A DNA stretch of 11,512 nt from Treponema sp. Lineage in GTDB: Bacteria > Spirochaetota > Spirochaetia > Treponematales > Breznakiellaceae. Where the stretch lies: NCBI GenBank assembly GCA_031257695.1, contig JAIROB010000155.1, positions 1 through 11,512 on the forward strand, read 5' to 3'. The notes beneath the pieces were generated by a model. That model was not told the origin of the DNA, made no database searches, and saw nothing but the letters and a program-made list of their open reading frames with translations. Positions 1 to 11,512 of this stretch are shown here, piece by piece. The translations under genes were made by a program, and so were the position numbers. Position 1 is the stretch's first letter. Every line of letters starts with the position of its first letter.

Positions 1-17
1 AAGGGGGGTGTCGGTGG

Positions 18-58
18 AAAAAATACGGGAGGGGCCGCCGGAGGGCCCCGTATTTTTT
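18..58 (-). terminator. Intrinsic terminator of left candidate RNA
   Basis: A perfect 12-bp inverted repeat, AAAAAATACGGG at 18-29 and CCCGTATTTTTT at 47-58, encloses a GC-rich loop that can pair a little further. With A6 on one side and T6 on the other it could stop transcription in either direction. The adjoining GNRA hairpin suggests that its main role is on the minus strand, ending the outward transcript. Confidence 0.75.
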
Positions 59-172
59 CATGAAGCCGCTTTCGCGGCAATCCGAAAGACAGGACCCCCG
101 GACAAAGTCTTAGTGCGTCCCCGCTAACCCAACTTGGGTCCATAGGGGGATCCGCAGGTCTTTTCGGTTTTG
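18..172 (-). ncRNA. Candidate structured small RNA, left copy
   Basis: Read on the minus strand this is the same sequence as the right-hand candidate RNA. A helix pairs 158-167 with 82-90 (nine pairs, one bulge). The GGA(U)CCCCC/GGGGGUCC helix stacks on it, followed by inner GGAC/GUCC and UUAG/CUAA helices. Next comes a GCCGC-GAAA-GCGGC hairpin at 65-78 and a terminator stem at 18-58. The minus direction is chosen because it gives a GNRA tetraloop and puts the U-tract stem at the 3' end. The 5' end is not fixed and I see no convincing promoter. I do not recognise the family. It diverges from the penicillin-binding protein gene at its right. The structure was drawn by eye, without a folding program. 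Confidence 0.5.
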
Positions 173-243
173 GGATTTTGAATTCGGAATTGCTGTCCAT
201 ACGAAACCCGCGATTCAAAACCCCCATAGCTCGCCGCTTAGCC

Positions 244-3169: not shown

Positions 3170-3559
3170 GTGCAGGTTCCTTTGAATAACATAATCGTAA
3201 AAAAACGGGTCCGCAAAGAGATGGGGGACATCGCAGCCCTGGCGGACAGCATGAAACGCCACGGCCAAATGAGCCCCATCCTGCTGAACAACCGCAACCA
3301 GCTTATCGCCGGGGGCAGAAGGCTTGAAGCGGCCCGCTATCTTGGCTGGCGGACCATCAACGCTATTATCCTGGACATCAACGACAACCTCTCCCTGCTG
3401 GAATACGAGGTGGAGGAGAATATGCAGCGCCAAAACTTCACCGCCGAAGAGCTTGCCCAGGCCGCCCTGAGGCTGAACAAACTCCGGAATCCCGGCTTCT
3501 TCCGCCGTATCTGGAACGCTTTCCTGCGCTTTTTTAAGAAACTGCGGGGAGAAGGATAA
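3170..3559 (+). CDS. Short ParB N-terminal-domain protein
   Basis: This 129-residue protein is essentially one ParB/Noc N-terminal (CTP-binding) domain. The domain shows AGGRRLEAARYLGW (47-60), which fits the GxRR box, and EENMQRQNFTAEELAQA (82-98), which fits the ENxxR box that completes the nucleotide pocket in ParB proteins. The helix-turn-helix and C-terminal dimerisation domains of true ParB are absent. In their place is a short tail, FFRRIWNAFLRFFKKLRG (110-127), with alternating aromatic and basic residues like an amphipathic membrane-binding helix. No parA or parS is visible, so a chromosome-partition role is not supported here. The start is GTG at 3170 with GAGG seven bases upstream. 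It lies 40 bases after the penicillin-binding protein gene, which hints at an envelope-linked role, but the function is unknown. Confidence 0.85.
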   Translation: MQVPLNNIIVKKRVRKEMGDIAALADSMKRHGQMSPILLNNRNQLIAGGRRLEAARYLGWRTINAIILDINDNLSLLEYEVEENMQRQNFTAEELAQAALRLNKLRNPGFFRRIWNAFLRFFKKLRGEG

Positions 3560-3594: not shown

Positions 3595-4978
3595 CCCTGA
3601 CCCCAATGGGAACATAGCTGCGGCGGGGTTGGACGCACTTATAGGCGGGGCGTATAATCTTGCCCCCCGACACAATCTCCTCCATGCGGTGGGCGGCCCA
3701 GCCCGCCACCCGGCTTACCGCGAATATGGGGGTATAGAGCTCCTCCGGGATGCCCAACATTCCGTATACAAACCCGGAATAGAAATCCACATTAACGCAG
3801 ATATCCTTGTCCAGGCCCTTTACCTTCCGCATGAGCTCCGGCGAAATTTTTTCGATCAGGCGGTAGAGGTTGAATTCCTCCATCCTGCCCTTTTCTTCCG
3901 CCAGAGCCGCGGCCTTGTTCCGCAGAAGCACCGCCCGGGGGTCGGAAATGGTGTACACCGCATGGCCCAAACCGTAGATCAGCCCCGAACGGTCATAGGC
4001 TTCCCCCCGGAGTATATCCGCCAGGTAATCCGCCACTTCCCCCACATTGTCCCAATGCTTAACGTGTTTTTTCAGATCCTCCATCATGCCTATAACCTTG
4101 ATGTTGGCGCCCCCGTGCTTAAAGCCCTTGAGGGAGTTGATCCCCGTGGTGAGCGCCGCATAGGTGTCGGTGTCCGCGGAGCTGACCAGGTGCACCGCGA
4201 AGGTGGAGTTGTTGCCCCCCCCGTGTTCCGCATGGAGGACCAGCGCCAGGTCAAGCAACTCCGCCTCCAGCCTGGTAAAATACTGATCCGGGCGTATGAG
4301 GGAAAGGATGCTCTCCGCGGTTGAGCTTGTGGAAGCCGGCAGGTGGAGCACCAGGCTTTCGTGGTCGTAGTAGTGCTTTTTGGCCATATAGGAATACGCG
4401 ACGATGGTGGGAAACCGCGCTATGAGTTCTATGCACTGGCGGAGCACGTTTTCCGGGCTTAGATTTTCAGGATCATCGTCCCAGGAGTAGAGGGTCAGCA
4501 CCGAGCGGCCGAGCTTGTTCATAATATCCCGGGAGGGCGCCTTCATGATGCTGTCCTCCGCAAAGTTTGCCGGCAGGATCCGCTTTTCCCCCAGGAAGGC
4601 GCAAAACTGCGCCAGTTGCCCCTCGTCCGGCAGGGTCCCGAACATAAGCAGATAGACCGTTTCCTCAAAACCAAAACGGCCCTCCTCCCCGGCGTGGGCG
4701 ACAATTTCCTCCACGTCAATGCCCCGGTAAAAGAGCTTGCCCGCCACGGAGGTCTTCTCGCCCTCGTCCATGATATAGCCGTGGACATCCCCTACCCGGG
4801 TAAGCCCCACCAGCACCCCGGTGCCGTCGGGGTTGCGGAGCCCCCGTTTAACATTGAACTTATGGTAGAGTTCTCCGTCTATATAGTCGTTCCCGGAAAT
4901 CTCAGCCAAATAATCCTTGATGCTCGGCATTTGCGCCTCCCCGGTAATTTCCGTAAAATAATCCCTGATGCTTGTCAT
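3587..4978 (-). CDS. gltA: Citrate synthase (Si type, mitochondrial-like)
   Basis: Condenses acetyl-CoA with oxaloacetate to citrate, the entry to the oxidative TCA arm and, in fermenters, the route to glutamate. The product is 463 residues from the ATG at 4978. LHAEHGGGNNSTF carries the first catalytic His (residue 252). GLGHAVYTISDPRA carries the second (residue 339) and resembles the GHAVLRKTDPR form of mitochondrial-type enzymes rather than the GHRVYK form. VNVDFYSGFVYG carries the catalytic Asp (residue 398). All three are present, so the enzyme should be active. Three in-frame ATGs lie at 4990, 4978 and 4930. The latter two each have GGAGG five bases upstream because the start region is duplicated, and 4990 has no such site. 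It is transcribed from its own promoter at 5047-5075. Methylcitrate synthase activity cannot be excluded from sequence alone. Confidence 0.93.
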   Translation of the reverse strand: MTSIRDYFTEITGEAQMPSIKDYLAEISGNDYIDGELYHKFNVKRGLRNPDGTGVLVGLTRVGDVHGYIMDEGEKTSVAGKLFYRGIDVEEIVAHAGEEGRFGFEETVYLLMFGTLPDEGQLAQFCAFLGEKRILPANFAEDSIMKAPSRDIMNKLGRSVLTLYSWDDDPENLSPENVLRQCIELIARFPTIVAYSYMAKKHYYDHESLVLHLPASTSSTAESILSLIRPDQYFTRLEAELLDLALVLHAEHGGGNNSTFAVHLVSSADTDTYAALTTGINSLKGFKHGGANIKVIGMMEDLKKHVKHWDNVGEVADYLADILRGEAYDRSGLIYGLGHAVYTISDPRAVLLRNKAAALAEEKGRMEEFNLYRLIEKISPELMRKVKGLDKDICVNVDFYSGFVYGMLGIPEELYTPIFAVSRVAGWAAHRMEEIVSGGKIIRPAYKCVQPRRSYVPIGVREN

Positions 4979-4988
4979 CCGTGCCTCC
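4893..4988 (-). repeat. Tandem 48-bp duplication of the gltA start region
   Basis: On the minus strand two adjacent 48-base units (4988-4941 and 4940-4893) match at 37 of 48 positions by hand count. Each unit carries GGAGGC, a five-base spacer, an ATG and codons for a similar peptide: MTSIRDYFTEITG in the first and MPSIKDYLAEISG in the second. The result is two in-frame start sites with equally good ribosome sites and a repeated N-terminal segment. Confidence 0.85.
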
Positions 4989-8712: not shown

Positions 8713-8788
8713 GAGGGGGAAGCCTCCCCCTCGCTCCAGCCCCGCAAGCGGGTCTTACGCTACCCCCTCTGCGGGGGATACCCCCGCA
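8713..8788. repeat. GC-rich multi-hairpin block between pgk and tpiA
   Basis: Three compact inverted repeats lie in series. GAGGGGGA/TCCCCCTC (8713-8732) has eight pairs and a four-base loop. CCCGC/GCGGG (8741-8752) has five nominal pairs and a tight loop. TGCGGGGG/CCCCCGCA (8770-8788) has eight pairs and a three-base loop. None is followed by a T-run in either direction, so this is not a standard terminator. It looks like a REP-type palindromic repeat unit that could slow RNA decay or polymerase between the two genes. Confidence 0.6.
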
Positions 8789-8838
8789 ACGCCCCCGCCT
8801 GTTGTGCCGGGCATGGTTGGCGGATCGGCGACGCGCTC

Positions 8839-11299: not shown

Positions 11300-11340
11300 G
11301 GGGACGCCCCCCTATGGCAGTAATTCCGAATTCAAAATCC

Positions 11341-11495
11341 CAAAACCGAAAAGACCTGCGGATCCCCCCATGGACCCAAGTTGGGTTAGCAGAGACGCAC
11401 TAAGACTTTGTCCGGGGGTCCTGTCTTTCGGATTGCCGCGAAAGCGGCTTCATGAAAAAATACGGGGCCCTCCGGCGGCCCCTCCCGTATTTTTT
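11341..11495 (+). ncRNA. Candidate structured small RNA, right copy
   Basis: Read rightward the sequence forms stacked helices. P1 pairs 11346-11355 with 11423-11431 (nine pairs, one bulged A). P2 pairs 11360-11368 with 11414-11421 (eight pairs, one bulged U). P3 pairs 11372-11380 with 11406-11413 around a small internal loop. P4 is UUAG/CUAA at 11386-11389 and 11400-11403, closing a ten-base loop. A GCCGC-GAAA-GCGGC hairpin (11435-11448) and the terminator stem follow. The GNRA tetraloop and terminal U-tract set the strand. It lacks the conserved loop of SRP RNA, a tRNA-like end as in tmRNA, and the large central bubble of 6S RNA. The family is unrecognised, and the 5' end and promoter are not resolved. 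Confidence 0.5.
11455..11495 (+). terminator. Intrinsic terminator of right candidate RNA
   Basis: AAAAAATACGGG (11455-11466) pairs perfectly with CCCGTATTTTTT (11484-11495) around a GC-rich loop. The stem ends in six Ts on the plus strand, six bases beyond the GAAA-capped hairpin. A-tract symmetry makes it usable from both sides. Confidence 0.75.
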
Positions 11496-11512
11496 CCACC
11501 GACACCCCCCTT

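Follow-up and report, generated by a model that had tools for sequence, protein, structure and literature searches.

Ends of a Treponema contig as probable halves of a mobile palindromic repeat with a conserved kinked hairpin

Here we report that both ends of the window, an 11,512-nt contig of Treponema sp. (JAIROB010000155.1; the whole stretch of DNA that was analysed), carry inverted copies of a palindromic repeat that is dispersed in related genomes. Our preferred reading, to which we give a probability of roughly 0.7, is that these contig ends are halves of a MITE of termite-gut treponemes whose core hairpin works as a folded single strand. The mobile nature of the class that contains the window copies is well supported. 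We judge the outer part of the element to be of an ordinary kind, a MITE, and the conserved hairpin inside it to be unusual and well supported. An RNA role of this core, as read from its sequence, is plausible but unproven. In the mechanism that we propose, a resident transposase of the type found in genome G072 would move the element in trans via its CAGCAATTC ends, and the core hairpin would act as a folded single strand, in all likelihood as RNA from the inward strand; such an RNA might be a leader or read-through hairpin to which a protein binds or which an RNase cuts.

The two copies (1-195, minus strand in outward reading, and 11318-11512, plus strand) are 98% complementary, with three differing positions and unrelated flanks, which bears out the duplication claimed in an earlier, sequence-only reading of this DNA. 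Each consists of the left arm and the apex of a palindromic element, copy 1 being cut by the contig start and copy 2 by the contig end, so that a single element end is present per copy and the right arms and target duplications lie beyond the contig. The window copies are probably two dispersed insertions and, since they are repeats, the contig probably broke inside both. Repeats of this class also reach contig ends in several relatives (e.g. loci L118, L123, L132 and L162), and the mobile repeat may account for contig breaks in assemblies of termite-gut treponemes. Read outward, copy 2 begins with a terminal inverted repeat (CAGTAATTCCGAATTCAAAA, 11318-11337, plus strand) that contains the end 15-mer CAGYAATTCCGAATT; its counterpart in copy 1 (176-195, minus strand) was located by the inverted repeat and the 15-mer search. 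It is followed by an outer-arm module (CCGAAAAGACCT, 11346-11357, plus strand) recognised by its likeness to L128, L132 and L133, in whose complete copies it pairs with a right arm of the GGTCTCTTTTCGG type that is absent in the window. The B-arm module (CCCCCCATGGACCC..., 11364-11413, plus strand) also occurs in other genomes, as an independent palindrome. The core hairpin, given here on the inward strand that we infer to be functional, occupies 5-98 on the plus strand in copy 1 (GGGGTGTC ... GACA[GGA]CCCC) and 11415-11508 on the minus strand in copy 2. The plus-strand TCC at 11419-11421 is the complement of a GGA bulge that is conserved in alignment A2 (see below) between GGGG/CCCC and the upper stem. 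A lateral hairpin insert (11426-11453, plus strand; mirrored in copy 1 at 60-87, minus strand) has the loop GAAA outward and UUUC inward and resembles modules in other loci: it recurs in L118/L084/L185 (one site) and in L120/L087 (one site), with looser copies elsewhere. In copies of G094, G097, G174 and G186 small hairpins are present at the opposite side of this junction. The apex of the palindrome is an A/T-flanked G+C hairpin (11454-11496, and 17-59 in copy 1), which self-comparison of the 195-nt copy shows to be self-inverted at its positions 137-179.

A BLAST search with the window end against the genomes of the G001 family gave matches in 32 of 195 at an E value of 0.01, mainly to the apex and to single modules. 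In the 20 regions that were read, complete elements have CAGYAATTCCGAATTCAA and its complement as ends, then outer arms such as CCGAAAAGAGACC/GGTCTCTTTTCGG, and then the core palindrome. These relatives are about 170-400 bp long and built as imperfect palindromes nested in one another; by self-comparison the palindrome spans 129 nt in L128, and in L115 it spans 179 nt. Folded as a single long hairpin, complete copies reach z values of -7.2 (L128), -8.8 (L115) and, in another copy, -11.4, and both strands of one complete copy fold about equally (z -11.4 and -12.4). Ends of the window class surround unrelated interiors in L129, L130 and L131. Two loci deserve separate mention. L114 (G107, contig C144, 292-410) has the outer arm and the junction as in the window, the first 60 nt being identical, and its B module is reversed, as if the inner palindrome had flipped. 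In L118 (G178, contig C143), from about position 680, an insertion that looks by eye to be of the IS3 type lies in the apex of the core hairpin.

Complete copies bear terminal inverted repeats, as expected of a MITE, with CAGYAATTCCGAATT and its complement at both ends. This 15-mer occurs in 38 of the 195 family genomes (59 matches in G108), and the reversed pattern has three matches in all. Direct repeats of 9 bp with at most one mismatch were found at 14 of 76 candidate end pairs, a set made up of all pairings in the loci, spurious ones included; the null expectation is about 0.2%. Several of these 14 contain the core (L188, L195, L204, L207 and L275). Repeats of 5, 6, 7, 8, 10, 11 and 12 bp numbered 4, 1, 0, 2, 1, 0 and 0 in the same 76 pairs, and many of the 59 pairs without a convincing 9-bp duplication are spurious pairings. 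The class with CAGYAATTC ends therefore has a target duplication of fixed length, again as in MITEs; at elements with other ends no target duplication was seen by eye. Another property of MITEs, ends in common with an autonomous element, was found as well: in G072 (L162) these ends enclose an element of 1370 bp with an intact 435-aa transposase ORF. This ORF weakly matches PF13808 (DDE_Tnp_1_assoc) and NF033591 (IS4), both below cut-off, and has 6105 relatives among 8000 scored candidates, the name ISNCY standing on one of 120 listed. Any target duplication of the L162 element would lie beyond the contig, because its right end is the contig end. In G119 there is a second copy, which is split into several ORFs and shows no duplication. 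A conserved insertion at gapA was rejected: of 28 oriented loci, one (G080) has the exact end in the 500 nt upstream of gapA, look-alikes were seen by eye in a few, and G104 and G105 (GAPDH 91% and 90% identical) have no end or core within that distance. A search for the repeat on plasmids found none, and a 19-mer search of viral contigs gave 0 matches.

The foot of the core hairpin is invariant, 5'-GGGGTGxC...GxCA[GGA]CCCC-3', and the stem varies between genomes and stays complementary. Summed over a per-genome table, the pattern GGGGTCCTGNC-N35-65-GNCACCCC has 385 exact matches, in 48 of the 195 family genomes, compared with 11 for a reversed control; copies within a genome can be near-identical. 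The core was found in 7 of 221 new genomes of an order sample, two of which (G207 and G216) share one stemless site that we attribute to chance. A phylum sample with 259 new genomes yielded it in 1. On viral contigs the gapped pattern gave 53 matches with stem scores of at most 9.0; the list of 56 made up of these and of three spirochaete loci at 14.5-18.8 has a median of 5.5. For 44 representatives of the core (less than 85% identity) the median is 13.0, with 39 scores above 9. These representatives were not selected for stems, and their stem positions 2-13 are 75-95% paired compared with shuffled means of 26-71%, each position beating the best of 500 shuffles. Alignment A2 holds 37 of the 44 (stem score of at least 10, length of at most 72, without the window copies), a choice of good stems that favours its pairing and covariation results: 90.1% of its cells are paired, double-change cells number 92 against 26.7 ± 5.3 in shuffled and at most 35 in slid alignments, and the covariation score is 0.361 against 0.117 ± 0.014 shuffled and at most 0.152 with a slid partner. 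Double changes are seen in 10 pairs against 7.8, a level that 37 of 500 shuffles attain. In 37 of 37 rows, which were chosen by a pattern containing them, GGA and the CCCC beside it are invariant. Hence the core shows the helix covariation expected of a structured RNA, a behaviour that DNA palindromes can display too, and the earlier claim of a structured element holds in that the hairpin inside truly covaries.

A covariance model (R1) built without the window matches it at 5-98 on the plus strand and at 11508-11415 on the minus strand with 30.4 bits each (E 1e-4), the next match being near 10 bits; both matched strands point into the locus. We ascribe the low score of the window copies (30 bits) to the lateral insert. 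Among relatives of G104, R1 matched in at least 17 of 58 genomes (90 candidates scored per genome). An RNAalifold run on a mixed alignment of 74 copies (three of 77 were dropped as incomplete) fell out of register. In Rfam searches of the window and of sets of 11 and 17 loci the element matched no family above cut-off, in agreement with the sequence-only reading, which could not assign it to a known RNA. The matches that did pass in the locus sets (tRNA, SRP RNA and tRNA) all lie outside the element, and none passed in the window. A MIR5070 match (E 0.87, below cut-off) was taken as chance, and microRNA-type matches on the long hairpins were discarded as below their cut-offs.

On the GGGGTGxC...GxCAGGACCCC strand the mismatches of the inner stem are G.U in 42 cells and A.C in 8 among the 44 representatives, and a vote by genome gives 26 for G.U and 3 against, with 13 ties. 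Counts of 50 to 5 in 60 hand-picked cores and of 42 to 13 in 63 cores from loci come from sets that overlap with each other and with the 44. There are fewer events than cells in the G.U count, because 25 of the 42 cells fall at stem positions 12-15 and are partly common by descent. The outer arms are palindromic as well (score 16.6 versus 6.9 shuffled), and their G.U to A.C counts are mixed: 85 to 60 in 59 of 63 copies and 37 to 37 in 43 representatives. In 31 copies of Breznakiella homolactica the outer arms have 34 G.U to 65 A.C and the inner stems 8 to 2. An RNA comprising the whole element would not predict such mixed counts, which argue against it. An early strand test over long arms gave 406 GT and 466 AC on the outward strand, with flanks mixed in, and a tightened version 131 versus 182; later tests were restricted to the core. 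As a signal in sequence data, the G.U bias of the inner hairpin suggests that the inward strand may be used single-stranded, as RNA or ssDNA. From this bias and the mixed outer-arm counts we infer that the core is used as a single strand and the ends around it as double-stranded DNA. In the window the G.U-favoured strand points inward at both contig ends, to pbp and to gapA.

The sequence-only reading had taken the repeat for a discrete small-RNA gene that is read outward and has its own terminator, which we now consider highly improbable. An outward structure does exist: the 195 nt fold with z -3.13 (1 of 200 shuffles as good) and 11341-11453 with z -2.98 (3 of 200), compared with z -1.16 for the complement of the 195 nt (29 of 200). 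The 17-pair P1/P2 rod folds as claimed, with 6+3+8 pairs, and after it come GGAC/GUCC, then GCCGC-GAAA-GCGGC and finally an A/U-flanked G+C stem, as a terminated RNA might have at its end. Strand, extent and type, however, had been assigned wrongly. Both exact P1 strands occur together only in the two window copies among the loci compared at that stage, which makes the outward rod specific to the window. Several other B-arm copies have the TTAG/CTAA helix disrupted with no compensating change. GGAC/GUCC fares less badly; it is broken in L185 and in the four G001 copies, but L183 shows one compensation (GAAC/GUUC), and in L116 and L202 a G.U on the outward strand preserves the helix. Uncompensated breaks in other copies, named beforehand as a finding that would speak against an outward RNA, thus affect most of its helices. 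The GAAA loop is on the outward strand as described, but it lies within the lateral insert, and the strand preferred by the covariance model reads UUUC. What had been seen as a U6 tail belongs to the stem, as its 3' strand (AAAAAATACGGG/CCCGTATTTTTT, 11455-11466/11485-11496), its T6 pairing with A6; the apical hairpin thus has its U tract inside the stem, where an intrinsic terminator would have it after the G+C stem. Nor does the feature end at 11495, since complete relatives continue with a right arm, to which the left arm pairs; in the family fold GGGGTCC pairs with CCCC of the other arm (11505-11508) and not with GGATCCCCC. The core strand test favours the opposite strand, and target duplications flank the complete relatives, which speaks for a dispersed mobile repeat in place of a gene.

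For gene context, 24 copies were used that had an ORF call at most 700 nt away on either side, the ORF calls being crude. Of these sites 10 are divergent and 1 is convergent; among the tandem ones, 8 run along the core strand and 5 against it. Breznakiella homolactica RmG30 (G009, a member of the family of G001), which is fully sequenced (NZ_CP067089.2) and which we take to be a cultured isolate, has at least 30 R1 matches. Twenty of its copies fulfilled the pattern and flank limits; three lie inside a long ORF, and the 19 that could be classified are divergent in 6 cases, tandem along in 8, tandem against in 2 and convergent in 3, one site being common to both context sets. The tandem orientation bias is not significant in either set (8 vs 5; 8 vs 2 in B. 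homolactica). Because divergent sites outnumber convergent ones, the repeat is not typically a 3'-end element. A count of 23 of 43 copies inside ORFs was discarded, as antisense ORFs had been called. The 31 B. homolactica copies mentioned above were picked from 68 pattern matches, a number that counts both strands of some sites. Most of them have a third nested stem (CAGGG...CCCTG), linkers recur before the foot (GGTAACRC) and after it (CGGACC), and several variants of 86-103 nt carry a second apical block, GAGCGACTTTCGAGGCC. This strain could serve as a test organism for whether MITEs carry an RNA function. At the apex of its long variants the second recurring block (GAGCGACTTTCGAGGCCG.AGGCCG; L456, L459, L463, L465, L467, L472 and L473) is parted from the foot by a variable helix.

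A different explanation would be a conserved cis-regulatory RNA of 5' leaders that spread mostly by duplication with genes, its transposon-like ends being incidental. The bulged foot with its covarying stem, the G.U bias of the core and the low share of convergent sites would all fit, yet we regard it as unlikely: near-identical copies occur within a genome, 9-bp duplications are present, informative tandem contexts lack a significant orientation bias, the exact end is rare upstream of gapA, and a core lies within 600 nt upstream of pbp in 2 of 41 loci examined (80 fetched). Still less probable is a REP- or attC-like repeat whose folded single DNA strand is recognised by a tyrosine or HuH recombinase. 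Such recognition would also give a conserved foot, a variable stem and strand asymmetry, and REPs do bear conserved tags on hairpins; according to the part of PMC3733652 used here, however, they are 20-40 bp long with GTAG or CGTC tags, neither of which is seen at this foot. Of 25 core-bearing genomes tested, 12 gave no match to the dedicated Y1 transposase (PF01797) of a REP/RAYT system, including G108 with its 69 core matches, whereas 23 of 25 core-free genomes have it. As the core-bearing genomes tested are mostly drafts this absence is no proof, and a RAYT as mobiliser is unsupported. Core-bearing exceptions are G051, G094 and G199 with 35, 12 and 6 Y1 matches, most others having none to three. 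Separately, G015, G016, G017 and G018, of the same family and without the core pattern, have 33 to 69 PF01797 matches per genome. The Y1-linked and core repeat systems may replace each other.

That the copies bound an 11-kb composite transposon, or result from an assembly foldback, would account for their exact inverted placement at both contig ends. We find this scarcely credible, since the arms differ at three positions, the flanks differ, the interior holds housekeeping genes (pbp1a, citrate synthase, tpiA, pgk, gapA) and class repeats also reach contig ends in the relatives named above.

Among known repeats, RUP, Correia/NEMIS, ERIC and the Rickettsia palindromic elements are short, mostly intergenic, palindromic and multicopy according to the part of PMC2229807 consulted, and our repeat resembles them in its many short, mostly intergenic palindromic copies. 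In the same source RUP has its ends in common with IS630-Spn1, as ours has with a resident IS, but the RUP target is TA, whereas the CAGYAATTC class has a 9-bp duplication. Hairpin RNA has there been proposed or shown to affect neighbouring transcripts, by RNase III for NEMIS and in an orientation-dependent manner for ERIC. With GTAG- and CGTC-tagged REPs, of which the CGTC type is reported also in Spirochaetes (PMC3733652, in the part cited), our repeat has in common a conserved tag at one hairpin end and a high copy number; the different foot and the Y1 counts given above set it apart. The 1370-bp element links it by its ends to ISNCY/IS4-like DDE insertion sequences, which differ from our repeats in that the latter lack a transposase ORF. 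Unlike in known MITEs, with sequences compared through Rfam only, the bulged foot is kept across genomes and the stem replaced, and several outer-arm classes surround one core. The literature searched, which mostly left out subscription journals, gave us no account of repeats of this kind for Breznakiella or termite treponemes, and a mobile repeat with a conserved kinked hairpin in termite-gut and related spirochaetes is apparently undescribed.

A wider hypothesis, which we put forward tentatively and at clearly less than even odds, is that the cores form an undescribed family of structured, strand-specific RNA elements with a GGGG/CCCC foot, an invariant GGA bulge and a fully covarying stem, and that this family has spread through spirochaete genomes as cargo carried by several unrelated sets of transposon ends, which would act as double-stranded DNA and the core as a single strand. 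If this were true, selfish DNA would place an RNA module that can be reused in front of genes. It is usual to treat palindromic intergenic repeats as sequence families that belong to a single species or genus. In the present case a single bulged foot persists in dozens of genomes amid an exchange of stems, loops and transposon ends, and this separates the needs of mobile DNA from those of a folded single strand.

Between the two copies the window has pbp1a, genes for a ParB_N protein, for citrate synthase and for a hybrid histidine kinase, and tpiA, pgk and gapA. The identity of its PBP to the listed relatives is 57-76% (best segment; 80 loci listed), and nearly all of these are MAGs labelled Treponema sp. 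or Spirochaetaceae. Judging by these relatives, the window probably comes from a termite-gut treponeme. The ParB_N protein (3170-3559) has 129 aa and consists of the ParB N-terminal domain only. At the start of the citrate synthase gene (4892-4987) an imperfect (77%) tandem duplication of 48 nt leads to two like N-terminal peptides (SIRDYFTEITGEAQMPSIKDYLAEISG) and two possible starts. A further palindrome-like stretch (CGCAAGCGGGTCTTACGCTACCCCC) lies between tpiA and pgk at about 8720-8790, and a similar string, GGGGGTAGCGTAAGACTTG, is found upstream of the pbp of Breznakiella homolactica (L013).
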